Source: Pseudobdellovibrionaceae bacterium (lineage in GTDB: Bacteria; Bdellovibrionota; Bdellovibrionia; Bdellovibrionales; Bdellovibrionaceae). From it: a stretch of DNA of 64,000 nucleotides. Positions 891 to 16,090 of the stretch are shown in pieces. Numbering within the stretch: position 1 is the first letter of the stretch; each line of letters begins with the position of its first letter. The notes below the pieces were generated by a model, which worked only from the letters and a program-made list of their open reading frames with translations, had not been told where the DNA came from and made no database searches. The position numbers were made by a program, and so were the translations under genes. Where the stretch lies: assembly GCA_022843825.1 (NCBI GenBank), contig JALHMX010000006.1, positions 1 to 64,000 of the forward strand, written 5' to 3'.

Positions 891-1002
891 AGCAAGGACG
901 TTAGTTCTAAATGAGTTGAAATTCCACGTCAACAAGTATTTTATTTATTTTCACAAATAAAATAGTGTCAAAAGTATGTGCTATTTAAACCTATTTAGCT
1001 GT

Positions 1003-1078
<76 letters not shown>

Positions 1079-1236
1079 AATACGTTTTTGCTGTGGGAAG
1101 TTTGTCGCCCAACAGTCAAAGAAGTGCAAGTTTTTTTTATTTTATATACGAATTGCTTAAAAAAGCCCATAAAGGCGATCTATTTAGAGTATTTATTTTA
1201 AAAATAGTGCGAAAGCTGCTTTGCGTTTACGCAGTA

Positions 1237-1848
1237 CTAGGCGGTGGCGGCTTTACGATTAAGCATAGATCTCACGAACCAGTTGCGTTCTTCGATCATT
1301 TCAAAACCAACGGCCTCAGCACCTAGTAAAATGCTATGATAAACTTTTGTTAAAATTTCAAGTTCGACTTCAGTTTGATAACCGTCATCTTCGTAGGTTT
1401 CCTCAATCGCTGCAACCACACTTTTTAAATCGACAGTGGTTACAACTTTAGGTATTTTTTGTGAATCAAATCCTACGAGAGCAGTAGGTTTAAAACCAAT
1501 TAATATTTTAGTAATTAGCACCTTACTTCCACCATGAAAATTAACTTGTAAAAAAACTGAACCATCAAAGTCCTGACGGACTAAAACTTTATCTATTTTT
1601 GTAAGGGGAAGAACAATTGTTTTTGAATCTTCTTTTTGAGAAATTTTTAAATTGGTACCACCAACTTTGTATGTAAAACCACTCGTGCAGTCTAAGAAGT
1701 TTACTATTTCATTAATAACGTGATTATTAGGCATATTGTGCCGTCTGCTACTTTCAGACTCATTCGAAATCGATGGATTCTCAACATTTTTTGAAAGTGA
1801 GTCACTATCTTGCTCTTTTGGACTTTGGTGGTTATTATACTTCTTCAA
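1237..1848 (-). CDS. hypothetical protein, 203 aa
   Basis: I do not recognise a family. The first ~45 residues are rich in Ser, Asn, Glu and Lys and look disordered. Residues ~45-203 look like a folded alpha/beta domain with two strand-rich stretches (KTIVLPLTKIDKVLV and SVFLQVNFHGGSKVLITKIL) and an acidic helix near 165. There is no signal peptide or membrane segment. The start is a TTG at 1846-1848 preceded by AGGGGG with a 5-nt spacer; the next ATG is at residue 39 (1734) and lacks a good ribosome site. It diverges from the cupin gene across a short region with a direct repeat, so the two may share a regulator. Confidence 0.6.
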   Translation of the reverse strand: MKKYNNHQSPKEQDSDSLSKNVENPSISNESESSRRHNMPNNHVINEIVNFLDCTSGFTYKVGGTNLKISQKEDSKTIVLPLTKIDKVLVRQDFDGSVFLQVNFHGGSKVLITKILIGFKPTALVGFDSQKIPKVVTTVDLKSVVAAIEETYEDDGYQTEVELEILTKVYHSILLGAEAVGFEMIEERNWFVRSMLNRKAATA

Positions 1849-2449: not shown

Positions 2450-4006
2450 TTACTCTTGAGCGGGAATACGTTCAAGGTTGTCTTCGTTGATTTGAACTTT
2501 GAAAACATCAACATTTGACCAGTTAGAAAATTCGTCTTTATCTTCTTTACGGACGCGCCAAAAATATTCTCCGCCTTCGACTTGGTCGGTGATGAGTAAT
2601 TTATTACGAGTGGTAAAGACAGATTTGACAACTTGAGTGAATTCTTTATCTCGTGCAATTTCTACACGAAAGCGATTCTCTTCTCCAGATGAGGTCCAGT
2701 TAAGCCATACATATTTTCCCGAGTCCTTCTGGAAAAAATAAAACTTATTAGAAGTTTCCCCTACAATAACTGGCGCTTCTAATGTAAAAACTTTGTCATA
2801 GGTCACTTGACCCACATCAGATGAGCTGATCTTGCGACCTTCAGCATCTAATGCATGGATTTGATAGGAATACTTACCTGGCTTAGGTACTTCGATAACG
2901 CTAGCCGGACTACGAGAATCATATTTTTTTATAGTTTTAGCACTTTTGGGATCTTTAACTTCAACGACGTATTTATCGGCTAAAGGAACTTTAGACCATG
3001 CTACATCGAACTTTTCTTTAGTGCCTCTATCATAGGGGTTTTTAGCGCGATACTCTTTATTCAATTTAGGGTTTTTTATCTTGATTCCTGGGAAATCAAC
3101 CTGAATTTGACCTACCTCTGAGTAGTCGCTAAGTTGACTGTCCTTTCCAATACTGCGTCCTCGAAAAAATACGTTTTTAGCCAGACGACTTAACGATAAT
3201 TGAGTCGTTGTTGGATTGAATTTTTCAATATTTTGAAAATCAGGCGTGTTCGATATTTCTATTTCATATGATTCTGCTTGGGCATCAGGGTTCCACTTTA
3301 AAACCTGATCAGCGCCATTAATAGCACTATATCTGATATTTAAACTATCAAACTGGGGCGGCTGAAGCGAAAGTACGGGGCCAGCTTCTTCACTAGCCAC
3401 AGATCTTTCCAAGTTATCTAAAATTCCTTGATTGGCTATCTCGAGAAAACTTTCAGCAATGTCTTTTGATAGCTTCTGTGCTTTAAATTCTTTGACTGCA
3501 ACTTCTGATTTAGTATCAACGGCTACGCTTCCACATTTTTCAGATTTGTTAAAATTAATGGCACCCTTCTGTTGAGACACGCTATAATCGCGGCCACAGT
3601 CCGATATAATAATGTCTTCAAGAACCTCGTCCATCTGCACGGCTCCGTAAGGAATATCAATGACTAGTTTTTGATTTTTAGTTCTAAATTTAATTAACGA
3701 GTTCGGAGCTACAGTTATAGTTTGCCCGCCCTCGAGCTTAACGATAACACTTGATTCACTTCCAGTAAATATACTGTCACCCGCATTAAGGTTGTCACCT
3801 CTGCCAACGTCTTCCCAAAAATAATTGGCTATATTTTTTTTGCGCACATCTTTTTTAACTTGCTCTAAGATACCAATAGACTGCGATGATGCCGAGGTGA
3901 TCATCTTGAAAAGCGAATCATCTTGAATTAAAAATGCACAAATAGCTGCGATAAGTAAACAAACCACAGTTATAGTTCTATTTTTACGATTGCTCAGAAA
4001 ATTCAT
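2450..4006 (-). CDS. FecR-domain protein with Fn3-like repeats, membrane-anchored
   Basis: An N-terminal hydrophobic segment (residues ~11-27, after NRKNR) anchors or exports the protein. Residues ~68-110 match the FecR fold: RGDNLNAGDSIFTG, then a SSVIVKLEGGQTITVAPNS pattern. The remainder (~215-510) is a series of beta-sandwich repeats with Trp-containing strands such as LKWNPDAQAESYEIEIS and WLNWTS, like Fn3-type modules of envelope proteins. FecR domains in other bacteria relay signals or bind envelope ligands; the ligand here is unknown. The chosen ATG (4004-4006) begins a normal signal-anchor; an upstream in-frame TTG at 4084 would add 26 non-hydrophobic residues. No clear ribosome site precedes the ATG. 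It diverges from the PP2C gene, suggesting a shared role. Confidence 0.8.
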   Translation of the reverse strand: MNFLSNRKNRTITVVCLLIAAICAFLIQDDSLFKMITSASSQSIGILEQVKKDVRKKNIANYFWEDVGRGDNLNAGDSIFTGSESSVIVKLEGGQTITVAPNSLIKFRTKNQKLVIDIPYGAVQMDEVLEDIIISDCGRDYSVSQQKGAINFNKSEKCGSVAVDTKSEVAVKEFKAQKLSKDIAESFLEIANQGILDNLERSVASEEAGPVLSLQPPQFDSLNIRYSAINGADQVLKWNPDAQAESYEIEISNTPDFQNIEKFNPTTTQLSLSRLAKNVFFRGRSIGKDSQLSDYSEVGQIQVDFPGIKIKNPKLNKEYRAKNPYDRGTKEKFDVAWSKVPLADKYVVEVKDPKSAKTIKKYDSRSPASVIEVPKPGKYSYQIHALDAEGRKISSSDVGQVTYDKVFTLEAPVIVGETSNKFYFFQKDSGKYVWLNWTSSGEENRFRVEIARDKEFTQVVKSVFTTRNKLLITDQVEGGEYFWRVRKEDKDEFSNWSNVDVFKVQINEDNLERIPAQE

Positions 4007-4147
4007 AGTCTTATTATCGCCAGATCCAGTAACAAACAGTAGATCTAGTCGGGTCCAGAATGTCTCTCCAGAATGCGACGGCAAAGTCTAGTCCAGTTGA
4101 GCTGGTCCTCGACTTGCCTTTTTTCAATATAAAAAAGATTATTAATA

Positions 4148-5938
4148 ATGATCAAATTCAATAGCTTAAAAGCCAAAATCATTACATTATTAACGACCAC
4201 TTGTCTGACCGTAGCTTTCATACTTTTATACATTTTTATCTCGTTTTATAAAAAAGATAAAATTGCATATATCTTTGAAAATAATGCGGTCATTTTAGAT
4301 ACAGTTGGAGAACAATTCAGACGCGAAGTAGAGTTCAGTTCAGAAATGATCAAGGTTCATTTAGAACATGCCAAAAATAATAAAAAACTTTCTTTATTAC
4401 CTACCAATAATTTGCCCGAAGACTATTTCCTGGATAGCATTGCGGTCTATTTGAAAAAAGACCAGCTTGTCGTCGTAGACAAGTTGAGTAAACCGAGCAA
4501 AGATATCTCAGATTCTTTTGTAGAAAACTTACTAGTGGGTCAAAATACTAATGACGATCAAAGCGTACACATTGATAAACTAACAGTGACTGTAATTTCT
4601 GAATTCAAAAATGAAACGCAAAGTTGGGTACTTGCCTATCAGTTTCAATCCAACACCCTTGCTGATTATTTTAAGAATACGACAACGATTAATACCGCTT
4701 TAATTGATAAAACGGCTGGTGTAAGCCAATTTGATTATCCCCAAATTAGCAACTTGAGCGCCGAGCAAATTAATACTGAGCTGATGACAAATATTATCCC
4801 TTTGCTCAACCAAACATCCGTAACTCGCATGATCACTTTTGATCAGGAAAACTACCTGTTTTCTTCAACAAAACTTTATCAAAGTCAGACCTACCTATCG
4901 ACTTTTGTCAGCGAAAGCAAAATTCTTGAAAATCTAACTAGTTTGATGATCAAGGCCATTCTCTTCTTTATTTTAATCAGCTCCCTCGTCGTACTTTTAA
5001 GCTATTTTTCTTCAGACTATTTAACTCACCGATTACATAAACTGACACAGTCTGCCCAGCGCATTGCCGGGGGACAATTCGATGAAAAAATTCAAGACTC
5101 TGGTAATGACGAAATTTCAACTTTAACCACCGGCTTTAACCAAATGAGCACTGAAATTTCCCGCCTTCTTAACGAGACGGCCAACAAGGCCCGAATGGAA
5201 TCAGAACTTAAAACAGCCCAAATTGTTCAGTCGACATTATTTCCTAAAAGTTCCTATGAATCTGATTTCATACAAATAGAGGGTTACTATACCTCAGCGA
5301 GTGAATGCGGAGGAGACTGGTGGCATTATCATGAAAACGAGAACTATGTTTGGGTATGGATAGCAGATGCTACAGGTCATGGAGCTCCGGCTGCCCTTTT
5401 AACCAGCGCTGCTAAATCGGCTGTTAGTATTATCGAAAACTTAAATTTGCCAATTAAGGAATCTTTTGAACATCTGAACTCGGCGATCTGTAATGTATCA
5501 AAAGAAAACATGATGATGACAAGCTTCGTGGGCGTAATTAACAAAAAAACCTTGGAGCTTCACTATGTCAACGCTTCCCATGAGCCCTCTATCTTAATTA
5601 AAAAAAGCGACTCAATCTCTAAAGATGATCTGATTTTTCTTAACGAATCAACGAATCCGCGACTAGGACAATCAAAAAGTTCTCAATTTATAAGTTCTAC
5701 TGTAAACCTTAACCACGGAGATCGCGTTATATTTTATACTGACGGAGTCATGGACATTCGCAGTCCAGATGACAAGCAATATGGTGAAAGATCTTTTATG
5801 CGGGGCTTAGTAAAAAGTTACAATGAGTCCCAAACATTGACAGAGTTTTATACTCACTATGAAACTAGTCTTAGTGACTTCAGATCTAACACTGAACTTA
5901 TTGATGATGTGACTTACTGTTTTTTTGAAATCAAATAA
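4148..5938 (+). CDS. membrane HAMP-PP2C (RsbU/SpoIIE-type) Ser/Thr phosphatase
   Basis: A sensor phosphatase of 596 aa. TM1 spans residues ~10-32, an extracytoplasmic sensing region ~33-265, TM2 ~268-292, a HAMP linker ~293-345 (QSAQRIAGGQFDEKI, GNDEISTLTTGFNQM), then a short coil and an SpoIIE/RsbU PP2C domain. Metal-binding motifs are present: GGDWW near 388, DATGHGAPAALLT near 407, VNASHEP, and GDRVIFYTDGVMD. Family members dephosphorylate a phosphorylated STAS anti-anti-sigma protein, and a STAS-like gene follows 16 bases downstream. No anti-sigma kinase (RsbW) gene is in the window. It is probably co-transcribed with the next two genes and diverges from the FecR gene. Confidence 0.92.
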   Translation: MIKFNSLKAKIITLLTTTCLTVAFILLYIFISFYKKDKIAYIFENNAVILDTVGEQFRREVEFSSEMIKVHLEHAKNNKKLSLLPTNNLPEDYFLDSIAVYLKKDQLVVVDKLSKPSKDISDSFVENLLVGQNTNDDQSVHIDKLTVTVISEFKNETQSWVLAYQFQSNTLADYFKNTTTINTALIDKTAGVSQFDYPQISNLSAEQINTELMTNIIPLLNQTSVTRMITFDQENYLFSSTKLYQSQTYLSTFVSESKILENLTSLMIKAILFFILISSLVVLLSYFSSDYLTHRLHKLTQSAQRIAGGQFDEKIQDSGNDEISTLTTGFNQMSTEISRLLNETANKARMESELKTAQIVQSTLFPKSSYESDFIQIEGYYTSASECGGDWWHYHENENYVWVWIADATGHGAPAALLTSAAKSAVSIIENLNLPIKESFEHLNSAICNVSKENMMMTSFVGVINKKTLELHYVNASHEPSILIKKSDSISKDDLIFLNESTNPRLGQSKSSQFISSTVNLNHGDRVIFYTDGVMDIRSPDDKQYGERSFMRGLVKSYNESQTLTEFYTHYETSLSDFRSNTELIDDVTYCFFEIK

Positions 5939-5954
5939 ATGAAAAGGATATTAT

Positions 5955-6428
5955 ATGCAAAACACTATAATCAAAGTTAACAATACAGGCGGCGCGACTC
6001 AAATTGATGTTATAGGCGCTATAGATGAAAATTTCAGTCAGTTTACTAAGGATATTCCTAAAGCGGGAAATGTTGAATTCTCATTACAAAGTTTGAAATC
6101 GATAAACTCTACTGGAATTCGTGAGTGGATTAAGCTTATGCAGAGCTTATCCGGAGCTCAAATATCATTTGCCTCATGTCCCAAAATATTTATTGATCAG
6201 GTTAATATGGTTAGTGGTTTTATTCCCGCAAACTCAAAAGTAACGTCTTTTTATGTTCCCTACTATAACGAAGACTTAGATCGTGAATGCTTAGTCCTTT
6301 ATAAGGATGGTGAACACTACAATGGCAGTAACGTTAATGTTCAGGAGAATTATACTGACGCTGAAGGCAACTCGTTCGAATTAGACGTAGTCAAAGCAAA
6401 GTATTTTAAATTTTTACAGGGCGCTTAA
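5955..6428 (+). CDS. STAS-like (anti-sigma antagonist-like) protein, 157 aa
   Basis: The first ~95 residues follow the STAS/RsbV pattern: an opening beta-hairpin, GAIDENF, then LQSLKSINSTGIREWIKLM, where the Ser-Thr pair near residue 50 occupies the site phosphorylated in anti-sigma antagonists, then a second strand-helix unit. The last ~60 residues (from about YVPYYNEDLDREC) are an acidic extension not typical of RsbV. AAGGAT precedes the ATG. Its place right after a PP2C phosphatase supports a substrate relation, inferred from known RsbU-RsbV pairs. The partner that STAS would bind is not in the window. Confidence 0.75.
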   Translation: MQNTIIKVNNTGGATQIDVIGAIDENFSQFTKDIPKAGNVEFSLQSLKSINSTGIREWIKLMQSLSGAQISFASCPKIFIDQVNMVSGFIPANSKVTSFYVPYYNEDLDRECLVLYKDGEHYNGSNVNVQENYTDAEGNSFELDVVKAKYFKFLQGA

Positions 6429-6444
6429 TTAAAACAGGGTAACA

Positions 6445-9402
6445 ATGATCAACACTAATCAGCTAAGTGACAATCAAACTCAATCAGCTCGAAGAGAGCT
6501 TTATGAGATCTATGCTGATAATGCTGTAAAACCGCGCTATAAGAAAAAACTTATCGAAAGCCTTGATGAAATCTATGGATATGATCTTGTTTTTCTGGTG
6601 GGTTTAATTATGCACTCTGAGTTTTCGGGTAACCTTAATGTAATTAGTCAATCAAATGAAATCAGTGGCATCAGCTTCTCAAATGGTAAAATCACAAAAA
6701 TTGATCTTAACGATAAAGAAACATTTATGGGAGAGCTGCTCATCAAAGAAGGCTTTCTGGATAGAAAAAAACTTCTCGATTTATTACAAGATCAAAGTAA
6801 ACCTCTGGGTGAGCTCCTGATCAAAAACAATATCGCAACTAAAGAACAAATTATCGGTGTCTTAGTTAAACAAATGCGACTTCGCCTATCTAAATATATT
6901 AACAATACCAAGTACCGCGTTAATTTTTCAGAAGTCGATGTATCTGATTCAGAACTATCAATTTCTTACCAGGAATATTTAATTTTAGTCCATGATTGGG
7001 TTGCCGGTCGATTTGATGGCGAGTGGCTAAAGCTTCACTATATGGAACTCAGTGAAAGTCTGATCGATAATCCAAAAAACAGCACCGAACAAGAACACAT
7101 TAAAGATTTAGCCCTGTCAAAAGACCTTAAAATAGCTTTGCCATCAAATGACAGTCCGAAAGTTTTTTCTAAGGTCTTCTCAGAAATTAAAAATGAAAAA
7201 GATCAAGAATACTTTCTAAAAAGCTTTCATTATGGGATTATTACTGGACAAGTCTCACTTAGAAAAGATGCTGAAGCAGCTTCTCACTCGGATTCCATTC
7301 TGAAAAATATATATAATGCTTGCAGCAAAAAAACAGGTGCAGAGCTGCTAGAGACGCTGGCGCATATTCTAAAATATAAGCCCACAGAAATTGATGCTAT
7401 ATTTCAAACTATTAGTAACTACGTAGATACTTACACCGGCGATGACCATGATATGAAAAATAATATGTTTCGTATCGTTTTAGAAATGCTTTCCAAAAAA
7501 CAATATTATAACAACGAAATTAATAAAAAATATGCTTCTCAGGTAGACCCCACTAAAAATACCGAAATCTCTAATAAAGTCTCAGAAGTTTACAGAGATC
7601 TATTAGCTAAAAATCTATTTGTAGCAGTTGATAAGCTAAAAAAGCTCAATGAATACGGTTCCCATATATCTAAAATTAAACTTTATATGGTTTGGGCTAA
7701 AGCACTTATGATCCATCAAAATAATATTAGAATTAATGTTTCGGATTTAGAGCGTGATTTTTTACAAATACTACCGGAAGACAAAGACACAGCAGAGTAC
7801 CACTACGTAAAATCCATTTTATTCGTGTTAAAAAAAGATGAAACTGCAGCAAAATCAAGTTTTGACCAGGCCACACGCATGAATGTTGAGCTAAAAAAGT
7901 ATCCACCGTTCAAGGAATCGAGGTCTTTCATTAAAAAATTATTTAAACTTTCGCTGATCTTCGCGGTTTTAGGTGCGCACAGTCCAGATGTAGCATATTC
8001 ACAGCCCAGTTCTCAGTCAGTAGGCGGACATAAATTGCCTTTTGTTTATCTTAATCAGTATTTTAACTATAAAGTTATAGATAAAGACGAATCAATTGCA
8101 ATCAATGAAGTGCTCTTTAGTCTTAAAGATATGAATGTTATTCATACCGAATCTACTTACGAAGTTGAACTTAAAAATTCATTAGAACGATTTAATACAT
8201 CAGCTGAGTTCTCTTTTTTATCTAAAAATGACAAAAAAATGGTAAAAAGCTCCTCAAAATATTTAAATGGTATGCACTCAATAGCTAAAAGTCAGCTCTC
8301 AGCTGATCATCTTTGTCTGCTTCAAAAAAATGAACATACCAACATACAGATATGCAAAAACTTAGTTGAATCAAAATCGGCTGTAGGAATTAGCGTCTTC
8401 ACCATTAATAATCAAAACGTACAAAAAGAGGGTACCGTTATACTTAATGATAAGGCACAGAAAATCAGCTTGAACGCCATGAATAAAATGCAAGATTTCT
8501 TTAAGCTTGAAACTCATCAGCGTGTCATATTGCCTGCTAAAATTGAAAAATCTCCTGATTCTGAAGAATTTGAAATTCAGTTTGTTGACGCAAAAAATTT
8601 GCGGATTGCATGGCAGGAAAATGTGAATATGAATCAAAACTCTTTTCCAATTAAATTGGATAATATAATTACTTTAAGACAGGGTATATTTTTTAATGAT
8701 ATATCGCCTGATTCAGGCATGTCGCAAGTCTACATTGATCGCAGCAAAATACAGACTAAACATTTTAATAAATTTATTGTTGAGCCCATGGCTATTTTCG
8801 AACAAGTCATTGGAAAATCTGAAACCGTCGATGCTACTCTGAGAACTGGCATGGGAAAAGGATTGAGTTTAGCTTATGAACGGCACCTGCAAAGTGGACA
8901 GAATATTTCTGGAGCGCTTTCTTTTTATTCAACAGCAGTCGAAGAAGGGCAAAGCAATGTACTGATTCTTAATGCAGATCATTCGCTGCTCGGCCTGCAG
9001 GCCGGATATAAATACTTTTTTAGTGATAACCTAAATATCACTGGAGTTTTAAGACTCAGAGAAGAACTCTTTTTGAGCCAAGAAAACTCTACAACTGTCG
9101 GCGTTAGCAAAACCTTAGTCGGCATGTTCGGAGCAAGTCTGGATTATGCACTATATAGCGCTCATAAAATTAATGTGGGTGCGGAAGGTGGCGTTTTCGC
9201 CCTGACGCCTAATAGCGTTAAGGGCTCTACACAAACCAGTGTTGGTTTTTCTATTGAAGCGGGAGCTAGGGCCTCATACAAAGTAGATTGGGGACGTATT
9301 AACGCAAGCATGTTATTAGGATCTCGTAATCAAAAAAATAGCGAGTTTGTCTACTCCGCTAGTTACATCGTTTACAAAGCGGGTTTTACGTATCTGTTTT
9401 AG
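6445..9402 (+). CDS. 985-aa fusion: DUF4388/MshEN-like and helical N-terminus, internal hydrophobic segment, C-terminal outer-membrane barrel
   Basis: Residues ~40-90 look like DUF4388 (FSGNLNVIS, GISFSNGKITKID). Residues ~90-155 are two GspE-N/MshEN-type repeats (GELLIKEGFLDRKKLLDLL, LGELLIKNNIATKEQI), a domain that binds cyclic di-GMP in some families. Residues ~250-490 are helical, TPR-like. A hydrophobic stretch (~494-518) ends in VAYSQP, an acceptable signal-peptidase I site. Residues ~520-775 look periplasmic, and ~776-985 alternate like beta-strands and end in YKAGFTYLF, a C-terminal aromatic typical of outer-membrane barrels. One continuous frame covers all of this. No ribosome site or good start was found at the junction that would make two genes. 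It is the third gene after the PP2C and STAS genes. Confidence 0.7.
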   Translation: MINTNQLSDNQTQSARRELYEIYADNAVKPRYKKKLIESLDEIYGYDLVFLVGLIMHSEFSGNLNVISQSNEISGISFSNGKITKIDLNDKETFMGELLIKEGFLDRKKLLDLLQDQSKPLGELLIKNNIATKEQIIGVLVKQMRLRLSKYINNTKYRVNFSEVDVSDSELSISYQEYLILVHDWVAGRFDGEWLKLHYMELSESLIDNPKNSTEQEHIKDLALSKDLKIALPSNDSPKVFSKVFSEIKNEKDQEYFLKSFHYGIITGQVSLRKDAEAASHSDSILKNIYNACSKKTGAELLETLAHILKYKPTEIDAIFQTISNYVDTYTGDDHDMKNNMFRIVLEMLSKKQYYNNEINKKYASQVDPTKNTEISNKVSEVYRDLLAKNLFVAVDKLKKLNEYGSHISKIKLYMVWAKALMIHQNNIRINVSDLERDFLQILPEDKDTAEYHYVKSILFVLKKDETAAKSSFDQATRMNVELKKYPPFKESRSFIKKLFKLSLIFAVLGAHSPDVAYSQPSSQSVGGHKLPFVYLNQYFNYKVIDKDESIAINEVLFSLKDMNVIHTESTYEVELKNSLERFNTSAEFSFLSKNDKKMVKSSSKYLNGMHSIAKSQLSADHLCLLQKNEHTNIQICKNLVESKSAVGISVFTINNQNVQKEGTVILNDKAQKISLNAMNKMQDFFKLETHQRVILPAKIEKSPDSEEFEIQFVDAKNLRIAWQENVNMNQNSFPIKLDNIITLRQGIFFNDISPDSGMSQVYIDRSKIQTKHFNKFIVEPMAIFEQVIGKSETVDATLRTGMGKGLSLAYERHLQSGQNISGALSFYSTAVEEGQSNVLILNADHSLLGLQAGYKYFFSDNLNITGVLRLREELFLSQENSTTVGVSKTLVGMFGASLDYALYSAHKINVGAEGGVFALTPNSVKGSTQTSVGFSIEAGARASYKVDWGRINASMLLGSRNQKNSEFVYSASYIVYKAGFTYLF

Positions 9403-11083: not shown

Positions 11084-14000
11084 CTAATTACCTACACCTA
11101 AGTTTGGATCAACTAAACGTGTGAAATATGTTAGACGATCTATAATATCTAAAATACGAGGCTGTGATTGCTGCATTGAAACCCCATCCATCATACTGCC
11201 AATAACTTCAGAACCGGCAATCACCTGACCATTCTTCAAAGTGATATTGACACCTGACAACCCTTCAACAAGGAAGGCCTGAGCGTACCCTATTAAAGGT
11301 ACTGCGCTTAATTGATCATTCACTGGTCGTATTTTCTGAATCTCTGTTACAACTTTTTGAATTTCTGCATTTAGGGTCTCTGGCGCTGCTTTTTCTAGAA
11401 TGCTTTTATAACCCATAAAAAGCTGCAACTGATTAAACATAAATTTGCGCATTTCAATAACTTGAGATTCAAATTGATAAACTCCGTACTGTGGATCATC
11501 ATAAACTTTCGGCATAATGCCGCCCAGTTCGTTATATTCTCTAATACGTACAAGCAATGCTGCCGCCATTTGATCAGCGTCCGCCTTAGCCGCTTGAACC
11601 ACAGGGTCTTCTTGATCTCGGCCCATATGTTTTAAGTCAGCTGTTAACATATTATTGAGTAAGCTCACCATATGAGCCTTATTAGTTAAATAAACATCTG
11701 CATTCGCCGCACTTTGTATTAATGCCTGTGATGCAATACCATTTTGTGTCGCGAAATAGACAAGGGTGTCTGGTCTTGTGCGATCCTCACCCATTCGCGC
11801 AACATTAAGTCGATACTTAGGCGCAGAGGCTAAGCGGGACGAGCTTAGCTTAAAGCTTTCGGCAAAGGCATCAAATGAACTCCATTTCGACTCGTAAAAT
11901 CCAATGACTGCACCCACAGCGGCCTGCTGATCTATATATTGATTACTAGGAACTTTAATTCCTGTCTCAATAAATGTACCGGATGGACTGAAAAATCCAC
12001 TTGATAAATTGTCTGTCATAACTTCGTACATCAAGTTTACAATCAGTGACTGTGAAGGATCCGACATGCCTAAAATGTATTGCTCGAAGTCTTTAAATGA
12101 GAAAACACTTTGTTGAGCATCACTTGTTACATCAACTGATGAAGCTGACATTAAAAAATTTAATGCAAACATCTTATCATAAACAATACCCATCGTATCA
12201 ACTTTATCACGACTTAGGCCCACATCCCATACTGGGCGTGCCTCTACAATTTTTACATCTTTTACAGTTTTCTCAATTTGATTTCCAGCGCTGTCAACTT
12301 CGATCGTTTTGTACTGAAATGGAAATACAGTATAACGATTGTCATTTAAATAGCCGCTATTAGTTGTAGGCGTACGAATAACATCTTGAAAAAATTTGTA
12401 TCCCTCAAAAGCAGCATACAATAAATCGTTCGTTATTTGCTGTTCTACATTTTGAGGTCGACCAGACCCGTAGATGAAAGCCACTGAGAACGCTTCATCC
12501 AAAAATGCACGAATTTGCGCAAAAGTTTGAATATTTCTTATGATAATCTGAATTTTTTGCGGCCATCCGAAAACAATTTTATCAGAAACATAGTTTCTTG
12601 TAGCAAACGATCGATTGTAATCTGCTATCATGGTATTTACAATTTCAACTGCAGATCCGCCTGTATCAAATCGATTACACATAATTGACGTGTAAGTCCC
12701 GCCATCACTACATTGTTCATAGTGTTTGATGATTCCGTCGATATTTAAGGTATCTTTAGTAAAATGTACTAGCGAGTTTACACCCTTAACTTTCATTATA
12801 TCTTTTATATGAATCATATTTTTGTTAATTAACTTAATACCTAATGATTCAAATGCCTTTGCGTTAGCTGCAGCGACACGTGCATCCATTTCTACGTATC
12901 CCGTATAAGCTGCACGAATGGCATGCGCATCATATGGGCCGGGTCCAGCATAATACTGATCGATATCAGATACGTAATCCATGATAGACGAATAGTTACG
13001 TCCGGTTTTTTCTCCTGGGAATTCATAATTAGCCTTATCTGTAGAGGCTTTGAAATTATGCATTAGTCCAAAAGCATGTCCTAATTCATGTGATAATGTA
13101 CTCATCACGCCTTGTTTAAAGTTCAACATTAAATTTTTATGTGGATCTGGATCCATAGCAAGCGCCATATCATTGATTTCATTTCTTGAGTACAAGAAAC
13201 AACCTGGGCGATTTTGAGTCGCGCGATCAAACCGCACTGACATAGCTAAGATTTGCTGTCTTCTATTTACTAAGCTTTTAACATCTTCAGACAGTCCGCC
13301 ATGAGCTAAGAACATGTCGTTAATTCTGAATTCGAACTCACGCTCGTTCTGCATAAGCCGTTTATTCATAGCCATATCAGCTATTTTCTTAATCATCGTT
13401 GACGAATTTGTGGGTAAATTAACTTTATCAGAGCGCGAACCACGCTTCAATACGTTTTTATCTATTTTGGTATTCAGTTTCAATTGTGGAGTAGCGGTTG
13501 AAGTCATGCCACTGAGCATATTACGTACGTTCTGCTTGTCTAAATCAAAGTACTTAATCATATCTTTAAGATATTTTTTATTGTCACTTGTCAGTTGATT
13601 AATTTCTTTTACAATTCCGCCACCAATAGAACCTTGCTCAGTCTGGCCTACGTCCAATGACCCATTTTCTTTAAGCTCTTTTAAAGCTTTAGTTTTCATT
13701 TGCTCGATTTTCTTTTCATAGTCACGGGCAAGTTCAGTCATCTTTAACAAGATTTTAGTTTGTTCGTATGTATTACCTGTATAAACGATAGCATTAGCCG
13801 ATTCAATAACACCAGAACGTGGATTCGCGGCTGGCTGCGCAACCCCAAGTAATCCATTGTCAGCAGGGATTTCATTCAACCAAATATAATTTCTATCCAG
13901 GTCTCCTAATCTTCCCGTTTCCTTTCCTGGCTCTTCGATAACTAATTCAAGATAATCTCCAGATCTTTCTAAAGTAGTACCCTTGAAAGCATAAGCAAAA

Positions 14001-16090
14001 ATTCTGTTCCATTCGTCAACAACTTGCTTAGTGGCTTCGACTAAAAGCTGACGACGCTCTGGATTAGTCGCCTCAGGATTATTAATTCCGCCTAAATACC
14101 ACTTCATCGTTTTGCCATTACGCAAATCGTGAATCATTGGGAGATACTTTTCGCTGCCATCACGGTTATTTAAGGCGCCACTTTCATTATTTTTATCTGC
14201 TAAAGTAAATACGCCGTAGTTGAACGCTTCTTGAGCCATATGAGAAATATTCTCAGTAAATTGTATATCTGCAGTGCCTTTGTGTTTAACAAACGAAATA
14301 CGTTCAATCACATTGAAGTTTAGCTGCGCTAAAGCAGCCCAGTAAGCTGCATTCACATCTTTAATAGCAGCACATGACGTGTCCACAGTATGGGAGCTGC
14401 TGATAGAGAAATTAAGCACTCCATCATTTGCCAATCGCATGTCCATACCAGTAACTTTTTTCGACGAATCAGCAATAAAACAGCTTCCAGCATCATAAAA
14501 TGCCAAAGGTGATGACGCATCTGGAATCGTGTTTCTAGTCCAATCCAGTTTAATGTAATTGGCTTTCTCTTTAGTCGTTTCAACTAGATTTTTTAAGACC
14601 AGATTACTTCCATGAGCATCTTGTACTTCAACGTAATAGTATTTAACTGGAATAGACATTAATTCTTCGCGGTCTTTAGCGCCCTGACCAGTGTACTTGA
14701 TTAATGACATTTGATTTCTAACGACTAAACGATCTTCTTCAAGCTCAAATTTGATGATGTTCATGTCACTTGAAGTACCAGTTCGACCAATAAAGCTTGT
14801 CGCCGCGTCTTCTAAAGTACGACGAAACATAAATTCGCCTTTAAGATCTTCAATTCGAATCGAACTGTCCGGATCTAACAAACCCGTCACTTCATATTGA
14901 CGAGCAGTAGAATTTTCTAAAATTTCAACCATACCTACGCTTTGAGATTTAGGTACTTGAATAGACTGTACAGTTGCCGAAGTAGTTCCATTAGGGTCAG
15001 TTAATGATAACTCTAACTTTTTATACGCAACTGGTACGCCGGCAACTAAAACGATCACACAAGTCTGAGGTGGATTTGAAATCACACCTTTAAGTTCGAC
15101 ATCATTACAAGATACTACCCGACCACCCGAACCACCATTTTTGTATATACGGACTTGTTCTTCAGTTAACTTTGATAAATCGGTAACTTCATAAACCAAT
15201 AAAGCATCTGGAGAAAGCTTGGTTACTACCTGAGCTTTAGGATTTAAGAATTTGATACCAATTTTTAGTTCTTCGGCTAACTGCTCAACTGTTAACAGAC
15301 GCTTATCAATTTTATCTTGTCTAAATAGCTGTTTCATTTCACGAACCTGATCCGCACTTAGTCCTATAACCTTACGAGCATCTGTTCGCGAGTTGATTTT
15401 AATGTGGGTAGCTTGTGACCAGTCTGTCTCTTTAAGTCTTAGGACCGAAGTCTGTTCCTTTAATTCATTTTTAGTGCGCTCTAAAATACCGTACGCTGCG
15501 ATTTCATACTTAAACATTGGAACAAGTAATGTTCCGGTTGCTTTACCAGCTTTAATTAGCTCACGTTCTTGCGCCGCGCTTTTTTGCTCTTGAGCTAAAG
15601 TTTTTGCCTCGTTTTTCTTAGAGACAATGATTTTACTTATTAAATTCGCTTCCCGGGCCGAAATGGCTATGCTTTTCTCGATCGCATTAAGCAACTGAGC
15701 ATCATTAACAACTTTATATGCAGTAATGTTATTTTTATCGACCGAAAAAGAAATGTTGAATTGCTTATCGGTTCTGCTCGTTAATGGTAAACTATCAAAC
15801 ATAAACTTGATGCGTCCCGGAACATTAACATCTTCAGATGAAAGCCTTTGTGCTTCATCAAAATCCAAGATTTGAATTTTATCCGGATTGGATGCCTCAT
15901 CCACCAAACTTACATTCGCGGAAAAAGCCGAGCTTTCTTGAGGAGCACCGAACATTGATATTTCATAAACATCTGGGGCTATATCTTCAGGCAACTCCGC
16001 ATTTCTGCTTTTAGTGCAGGAAGTAATAGCAAATACTGCAAGTATTACTAAAAATCCCAGTGTTTTGTCCTTATTTATAATCTGTCTCAT
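11084..16090 (-). CDS. giant metzincin-type zinc metalloprotease lipoprotein, 1668 aa
   Basis: The N-terminus is a lipoprotein signal with lipobox ITSC (Cys ~26) followed by TKSRNAE, so the product should be lipidated. At residues 1001-1011 it has HELGHAFGLMH, the extended metzincin zinc motif HExxHxxGxxH, and about 35 residues later SSIMDY supplies the Met-turn. These predict an active zinc endopeptidase. The ~970 residues before it contain beta-rich stretches and a Lys/Gln-rich helical stretch (~130-175). The last ~600 residues are mostly helical. Related large zinc-dependent proteases are known in Bacteroidetes, Myxobacteria and Bdellovibrio; the substrate is unknown. In a predatory bacterium prey-protein digestion is a reasonable guess, but only a guess. 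It follows a barrel gene by 32 bases. Confidence 0.85.
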   Translation of the reverse strand: MRQIINKDKTLGFLVILAVFAITSCTKSRNAELPEDIAPDVYEISMFGAPQESSAFSANVSLVDEASNPDKIQILDFDEAQRLSSEDVNVPGRIKFMFDSLPLTSRTDKQFNISFSVDKNNITAYKVVNDAQLLNAIEKSIAISAREANLISKIIVSKKNEAKTLAQEQKSAAQERELIKAGKATGTLLVPMFKYEIAAYGILERTKNELKEQTSVLRLKETDWSQATHIKINSRTDARKVIGLSADQVREMKQLFRQDKIDKRLLTVEQLAEELKIGIKFLNPKAQVVTKLSPDALLVYEVTDLSKLTEEQVRIYKNGGSGGRVVSCNDVELKGVISNPPQTCVIVLVAGVPVAYKKLELSLTDPNGTTSATVQSIQVPKSQSVGMVEILENSTARQYEVTGLLDPDSSIRIEDLKGEFMFRRTLEDAATSFIGRTGTSSDMNIIKFELEEDRLVVRNQMSLIKYTGQGAKDREELMSIPVKYYYVEVQDAHGSNLVLKNLVETTKEKANYIKLDWTRNTIPDASSPLAFYDAGSCFIADSSKKVTGMDMRLANDGVLNFSISSSHTVDTSCAAIKDVNAAYWAALAQLNFNVIERISFVKHKGTADIQFTENISHMAQEAFNYGVFTLADKNNESGALNNRDGSEKYLPMIHDLRNGKTMKWYLGGINNPEATNPERRQLLVEATKQVVDEWNRIFAYAFKGTTLERSGDYLELVIEEPGKETGRLGDLDRNYIWLNEIPADNGLLGVAQPAANPRSGVIESANAIVYTGNTYEQTKILLKMTELARDYEKKIEQMKTKALKELKENGSLDVGQTEQGSIGGGIVKEINQLTSDNKKYLKDMIKYFDLDKQNVRNMLSGMTSTATPQLKLNTKIDKNVLKRGSRSDKVNLPTNSSTMIKKIADMAMNKRLMQNEREFEFRINDMFLAHGGLSEDVKSLVNRRQQILAMSVRFDRATQNRPGCFLYSRNEINDMALAMDPDPHKNLMLNFKQGVMSTLSHELGHAFGLMHNFKASTDKANYEFPGEKTGRNYSSIMDYVSDIDQYYAGPGPYDAHAIRAAYTGYVEMDARVAAANAKAFESLGIKLINKNMIHIKDIMKVKGVNSLVHFTKDTLNIDGIIKHYEQCSDGGTYTSIMCNRFDTGGSAVEIVNTMIADYNRSFATRNYVSDKIVFGWPQKIQIIIRNIQTFAQIRAFLDEAFSVAFIYGSGRPQNVEQQITNDLLYAAFEGYKFFQDVIRTPTTNSGYLNDNRYTVFPFQYKTIEVDSAGNQIEKTVKDVKIVEARPVWDVGLSRDKVDTMGIVYDKMFALNFLMSASSVDVTSDAQQSVFSFKDFEQYILGMSDPSQSLIVNLMYEVMTDNLSSGFFSPSGTFIETGIKVPSNQYIDQQAAVGAVIGFYESKWSSFDAFAESFKLSSSRLASAPKYRLNVARMGEDRTRPDTLVYFATQNGIASQALIQSAANADVYLTNKAHMVSLLNNMLTADLKHMGRDQEDPVVQAAKADADQMAAALLVRIREYNELGGIMPKVYDDPQYGVYQFESQVIEMRKFMFNQLQLFMGYKSILEKAAPETLNAEIQKVVTEIQKIRPVNDQLSAVPLIGYAQAFLVEGLSGVNITLKNGQVIAGSEVIGSMMDGVSMQQSQPRILDIIDRLTYFTRLVDPNLGVGN

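Follow-up and report, generated by a model that had tools for sequence, protein, structure and literature searches.

A candidate RsbU/RsbV/RsbW-type partner switch with a displaced kinase gene and a regulator fused to a putative outer-membrane barrel in a Pseudobdellovibrionaceae bacterium

Introduction

What does a membrane phosphatase with a STAS protein control when neither a kinase nor a sigma factor gene lies beside the pair? In the canonical partner switch the phosphatase activates the STAS protein and the RsbW kinase phosphorylates and inactivates it (available text of PMC8256260). Other outputs have been described: in SiaABCD the phosphorylation of the switch protein controls a non-sigma effector (excerpted text of PMC7278518), and the STAS switches SypE-SypA of Vibrio fischeri and BtrV of Bordetella have non-canonical or unknown targets (PMC8256260, same portion).

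The locus studied here lies in the window, by which we mean the whole 64,000-nucleotide stretch of DNA that was analysed, taken from contig C6 of the genome G000 (2.40 Mb, 33 contigs, 99.5% complete). A previous sequence-only reading had described there a FecR-like gene divergent from a three-gene unit encoding a sensor PP2C phosphatase, its likely STAS substrate and a cytoplasm-to-barrel fusion with MshEN-like domains, followed by neither an RsbW kinase nor a sigma factor. We have followed up this description by comparing the locus with those of related genomes (G001, G004, G005, G007, G010, G011, G013, G018 and G044 designate the relatives cited individually below).

Results

ORF calling on the window recovered the four genes at the positions that had been claimed for them. 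Their features are as follows:

2450-4084, minus strand: FecR-like, Fn3/Ig-like envelope protein with a hydrophobic N-terminal anchor, 544 aa from a TTG start (ORF call, Pfam, phmmer)
4148-5938, plus strand: membrane HAMP-SpoIIE (PP2C) phosphatase, RsbU/SiaA-like (Pfam, NCBIfam, motif alignment)
5955-6428, plus strand: RsbV-like STAS protein extended by a C-terminal segment (hhalign, Foldseek, alignment)
6445-9402, plus strand: 985-aa fusion of a REC-less half derived from a DUF4388/MshEN/TPR protein and a barrel-like half (ORF call, homologues)
6580-7014, plus strand: DUF4388 (PATAN) match, residues 46-190 of the fusion (Pfam, 23.6 bits, cut-off 25)
6727-6873, plus strand: pair of MshEN-like repeats within the DUF4388 match, residues 95-143 (NCBIfam NF053729)
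7927-8004, plus strand: internal signal-peptide-like segment FIKKLFKLSLIFAVLGAHSPDVAYSQ, residues 495-520 (hydropathy peak)
8005-9399, plus strand: periplasmic segment and putative outer-membrane beta-barrel, residues 521-985, ending in YKAGFTYLF

The four-gene arrangement is kept in G007, with 57% identity over the fusion, and is therefore not due to chance. Furthermore, in 40 neighbourhoods that were fetched and in which ORFs were called, and from which the ancestral layout was read, many family members have the FecR gene divergent from the PP2C gene, which is followed by STAS and then by the DUF4388 protein; conservation of the neighbourhood in related genomes, proposed as a check by the sequence-only reading, was found across the family. 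At its 3′ end the fusion gene shares 17 bases (9386-9402) with the 3′ end of a methyltransferase gene that converges on it.

For the FecR-like gene, an ATG at 4006 is a likelier start than the TTG. The protein diverges from the other three as had been described, although its FecR domain scores 13.8 bits, under the Pfam cut-off of 24, and its Fn3 matches are weak (Pfam); we keep the FecR label because relatives score over that cut-off (29.6 bits in G018 and 26.8 in G044, with 20.7 in G004 and 19.7 in G001 under it). Its phmmer homologues adjoin PP2C genes in relatives. The protein also matches weakly the LIC11435 family (6.6e-4, far under the cut-off).

The phosphatase has clear SpoIIE (8.6e-33) and HAMP (2.2e-12) domains in Pfam, and its metal-binding Asp motifs (ECGGDWW, DATGHG, YTDG and DD) are all intact in an alignment of 19 sequences, one of which ends early at its contig end. 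Its best NCBIfam model is SiaA (2.4e-21, 75.9 bits vs a cut-off of 700). The window STAS protein had no match in Pfam or NCBIfam, and a Pfam scan of its family gave nothing meaningful. It aligned to the Pfam-STAS proteins of relatives with an hhalign probability of 93% over residues 2-74, and the best PDB match of a two-row predicted model of medium confidence (pLDDT 55) in Foldseek was the RsbV of an RsbV/RsbW complex (E 3.9e-4), while a profile search of the PDB gave only weak matches (TM1442, 0.3; a Haliangium STAS protein, 1.1). These data support an assignment as an RsbV-like STAS protein, in which the predicted phospho-acceptor Ser52, in the motif INSTGIREW, is invariant in the 22 aligned sequences. 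The proposed pair of a sensor PP2C and its probable STAS substrate is supported. G000 has a single gene of this STAS family, and no PF01740 protein was found in that genome.

The statement that no RsbW kinase follows was correct for the locus but not for the genome. Many relatives encode, between PP2C and STAS, a protein of ~270 aa for which there was no meaningful Pfam match and only chance-level matches in a PDB profile search. The boxes ExxxN, D..G and G-A-G-x-G are conserved in this family, hhalign gave 92% against HATPase domains of relatives (drawn from a PF13581 search that yielded mainly frames of histidine-kinase length), and the top NCBIfam model for the G000 copy was SpoIIAB, below threshold at 0.0047. 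By its sequence, the Pfam-less protein proves to be a diverged, RsbW-like GHKL ATPase. A profile search of G000 found exactly one such gene, a diverged orthologue on contig C7 (1686-2492, L102). The three PF13581 (HATPase_c_2) matches of G000 had been considered as candidates for a canonical RsbW and were rejected, all being ordinary HisKA-type histidine kinases according to their translations.

In 22 of the 25 genomes that have a strong copy, at most 200 bp separate the RsbW-like gene from STAS, the only exceptions being G000 and its close relatives G007 and G011, the last of which has a contig starting at the RsbW-like gene and no STAS that we could find. In the kinase tree the copies of these three genomes form a clade inside the module-kinase clade of the genus (100/100), apart from the second copy of G010, which argues that they represent the module kinase, moved out of the operon. 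The sequence-only reading had taken a pairing of the STAS protein with an RsbW kinase encoded elsewhere as evidence against its proposal, and in part this is what the sequences indicate, because the module kinase sits on another contig in G000. Within the genus, RsbW-like genes occur in 8/8 genomes with STAS and in 1/6 without it, counts that are uncorrected for relatedness. The RsbW-like protein may not be the sole kinase of the switch, since among the 40 STAS genomes there are 16 without a strong copy, which carry an Hpt-HATPase kinase instead.

The G000 kinase gene comes after an HPRT-like gene and before thymidylate-synthase-like and DHFR-like genes, names that are a reading of the translations; genes of matching size surround it in G007 and come after it in G011. 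Weak matches to the RsbW-like family were also seen in frames of ~480-600 aa of many relatives, and in a 557-aa protein (L112, 3514-5187) with a cyclic-nucleotide-binding domain and a weak REC.

Turning to the fusion, DUF4388 scores just under the Pfam cut-off in the window protein, and both DUF4388 and the NCBIfam c-di-GMP_motif model match all 10 genus homologues scanned (E<=0.1), a set that includes one fragment and leaves out the G014 copy. A REC domain was found by Pfam in 28/28 DUF4388 homologues outside the genus and in 0/10 inside; in the former, Asp14, Ser87 and Lys111 of REC are invariant and Asp57 is present in at least 90%. Judged by these homologues, the 985-aa protein is the descendant of a REC-DUF4388/MshEN-TPR response regulator that lost REC. 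Half of the REC-DUF4388 proteins (14/28; A9 set, loci L046-L073) also match a DnaJ domain in Pfam, which is odd for a response regulator.

The family module has a second partner, a PAS-PAS-Hpt-HATPase kinase with a CheA-like HATPase region, whose gene lies beyond FecR or after STAS. It is present (E<=1e-30) in 23/23 family genomes of other genera and in 0/14 of the own genus, and its loss together with that of REC suggests that this kinase served the REC domain of the DUF4388 regulator. As the DUF4388 half is more widespread than STAS (53/59 vs 42/59 genomes) and is found in many STAS-less genomes, it need not be the STAS target.

The MshEN-like repeats of the fusion score 26.3 bits with NF053729 (residues 95-143, cut-off 38). 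Such repeats follow the pattern RLGxx(L/V/I)(L/V/I)xxG..LxxxLxxQ (PMC5013675, accessible portion). In the window repeats, FMGELLIKEGFL...Q and PLGELLIKNNIA...Q, the Gln is kept in both, the Arg of RLGxx is absent from both (FMG and PLG) and the later Gly is absent from the second. The G013 homologue has an Arg in its first repeat. The MshEN-like domains that had been claimed for the fusion are in this way supported as repeats below the cut-off, but cyclic di-GMP binding by them is doubtful because of the Arg replaced in both and the Gly missing from the second.

Of the 14 genus genomes 8 have the barrel-like half, and the 45 further genomes searched gave no match. It is a separate gene with a signal peptide in four genomes, directly following the DUF4388 gene in G010 and G004 and STAS in G005 and G013, the last two having their DUF4388 gene convergent to the module; it is fused in-frame in G000 (985 aa), G007 (1000 aa) and G001 (848 aa), and the contig of G011 ends inside it. 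The last residue is F in seven of the eight aligned copies. Neither a fold nor a family could be matched to this half, with 0 matches in a PDB profile search, and the AlphaFold model of the fusion from a two-row alignment was unusable (pLDDT 32), so that the description of residues 521-985 as a periplasmic segment and a putative outer-membrane beta-barrel comes from the signal peptide, the C-terminus and the strand-like pattern. In the genus, the barrel tracks STAS more clearly (7 genomes with both, 5 with neither, 2 discordant) than the DUF4388 half (7, 3 and 4), G011 with its broken assembly being one discordance in each comparison and the counts being uncorrected for relatedness. G001 has a second module (L035, contig C64) with PP2C, RsbW-like, STAS and ATPase-like genes and a separate barrel gene, and no DUF4388 half.

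The cytoplasm-to-barrel fusion with MshEN-like repeats is borne out by its recurrence in G007 and G001, the barrel being putative. This recurrence (57% identity in G007) rules out an assembly error joining two genes, and a chance ORF was rejected because the frame is open through 985 codons, its halves having dN values of 0.20 and 0.52; the synonymous distance was not computable and was read as saturated. The tree needs two changes to explain the history of the fusion, G001 is on a long branch, and a single origin is not supported by the tree.

Discussion

The composition of the module, with its intact catalytic and phospho-site residues, makes it probable that we are dealing with a partner switch of the RsbU/RsbV/RsbW type, in a diverged form, whose output is most likely the 985-aa fusion and not a sigma factor; as had been claimed, the four genes include none for a sigma factor (Pfam), and the Pfam-scanned module neighbours have none either. 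The membrane PP2C would read the state of the envelope, perhaps with the divergent FecR-like protein, whose share in sensing is a guess, and would dephosphorylate the STAS protein at Ser52. The Pfam-less RsbW-like GHKL kinase, with its gene outside the operon in the G000 species group, would rephosphorylate it, a pairing and a direction of regulation that we infer from the canonical arrangement. The phosphorylation state of STAS would then set its partner, either the kinase or another protein. The likeliest output is the co-encoded REC-less protein, which is joined through its internal signal-peptide-like segment to a barrel-like protein and would have the cytoplasmic and envelope topology that this implies.

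Two alternatives to this switch were considered. STAS could act directly on the fusion, with the relocated GHKL protein serving another pathway in the G000 species group, as the position of the kinase gene away from STAS in G000 and G007 might suggest; we find this unlikely, since Ser52 and the PP2C active site are still intact, the relocated kinase clusters with module kinases in the tree, and the matches examined in G000 include neither a second RsbW-like protein nor a stand-alone HATPase as a candidate. It has to be asked as well whether the main input comes from cyclic di-GMP bound at the MshEN-like repeats, which would leave the STAS module as a mere neighbour. The c-di-GMP_motif model does match every genus homologue scanned, the best at 4.5e-14, but the window score is below the cut-off, both repeats have lost the Arg and the second also the Gly, and in MshE a part in binding has been reported for Arg9 (PMC5013675, accessible portion); we judge this input to be quite improbable. 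The partner switch acting on the fusion is the reading that we favour.

As to the fate of the fusion protein, we tentatively consider a bacterial polyprotein, in which signal peptidase I would cut the internal signal peptide and so give two products, an outer-membrane barrel and a regulator that is either free or anchored in the membrane; the fusion would then only couple expression, and the halves would work as they do when split. The junction is the top 12-residue hydropathy peak in all three fusions (2.13-2.32), which keep a short hydrophobic core of ~10-11 residues like the signal peptides of the split genes; by the -3/-1 rule, and in our own reading, the cleavage-like sites are good in G000 (AYS/Q) and G007 (GYA/Q), and the split halves are encoded back to back in G010 and G004. 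However, most split copies have a slightly more hydrophobic core (2.23-3.19), the DUF4388 half of G000 has a second peak of 1.95, the junction ranks only third in G001 with a 19-residue window, the site of G001 is poor (NYC/DE), and folded cytoplasmic domains before an export signal make an unusual Sec substrate. Cutting of a membrane regulator by signal peptidase is known for RsiP (PMC8844934, as far as its available text goes). The protein could instead stay intact as a trans-envelope rod of cytoplasmic DUF4388/TPR domains, membrane helix, periplasmic segment and outer-membrane barrel, through which a signal would pass across the envelope. The single open frame in three genomes would fit, and the stretch of ~270 residues that separates the helix from the barrel-like C-terminal part might be long enough to cross the periplasm, but the signal peptides of the split homologues look cleavable and a stable helix would call for a longer hydrophobic core, so we judge a rod to be rather improbable. 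Least credible, to the point of being very unlikely, is separate translation of the barrel half from a non-canonical start inside the gene, with no true fusion product: in G000 a GAGG lies six bases before an ATT (residue 496) that shortly precedes the hydrophobic core, but the codon is ATC in G007, with no clear Shine-Dalgarno sequence, G001 has no match, no ATG, GTG or TTG start upstream of the core is common to the three fusions, and the frame is continuous through the junction. Taking the polyprotein together with the switch, a STAS-controlled former response regulator, with REC and its histidine kinase lost, would be tied one-to-one to a surface barrel by an internal cleavable signal peptide, a combined proposal that we regard as possible though somewhat doubtful.

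The module shares with RsbU-RsbV-RsbW and SpoIIE-SpoIIAA-SpoIIAB a membrane PP2C, a STAS protein with a conserved Ser and a GHKL kinase, and in many relatives also the order PP2C-kinase-STAS. It differs from these in that its four genes in the window include no sigma factor, its STAS protein has an extra C-terminal segment, and its kinase is ~270 aa long, unrecognised by Pfam and on another contig in the G000 species group. Likewise, SiaABCD of Pseudomonas aeruginosa has a non-sigma effector and its SiaA model is the one that the window PP2C matches best, but the score is far from the SiaA cut-off, the four genes have no diguanylate cyclase (no GGDEF match in Pfam) and the predicted fold of the switch protein is RsbV-like. 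PATAN (DUF4388) response regulators share the DUF4388 half, with an N-terminal REC in the relatives outside the genus, whereas the genus copies lack REC and that of the window is fused to a barrel-like protein; MshEN/GSPII cyclic di-GMP receptors share the two-repeat segment, which in the window scores below the cut-off and lacks the motif Arg. Unlike in the SypE-SypA and BtrV systems, the candidate STAS target here is an envelope fusion, and neither of these systems is known to have a barrel half. That the combination matches no described system, as the sequence-only reading had put it, agrees with the open-access literature in the portions available, where we found none, although an absence there is weak.

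Since the STAS family is present in 68 of 114 sampled phylum genomes (E<=1e-15), the switch is of a phylum-wide kind, and what is local is the relocation of the kinase, the loss of REC and the barrel fusion. The family may be viewed as a natural rewiring experiment, in which a two-kinase module (a CheA-like Hpt kinase with a REC effector, and an RsbW-like kinase with STAS) has lost, in one genus, the CheA-like kinase and REC and has gained an outer-membrane-type protein, with gene fusion as the end point. The comparison also identifies a diverged RsbW family that is invisible to Pfam, and offers the C7 kinase and the window STAS protein as a concrete pair for testing. Provided that its internal signal peptide is functional, the fusion would represent an unusual way of producing a cytoplasmic regulator together with an envelope protein in a fixed ratio.

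Two further features of the window lie outside the module. A 116-aa ORF at 976-1326 (plus strand) is probably spurious, with a tRNA-Ala gene on the opposite strand at 1003-1078. The gene at 11084-16090 (minus strand) encodes a protein of 1668 aa, probably a lipoprotein, which carries a Met-zincin domain (DUF4953, 6.2e-09), and a 1130-aa Met-zincin protein is encoded in the same context in G011 (L042).
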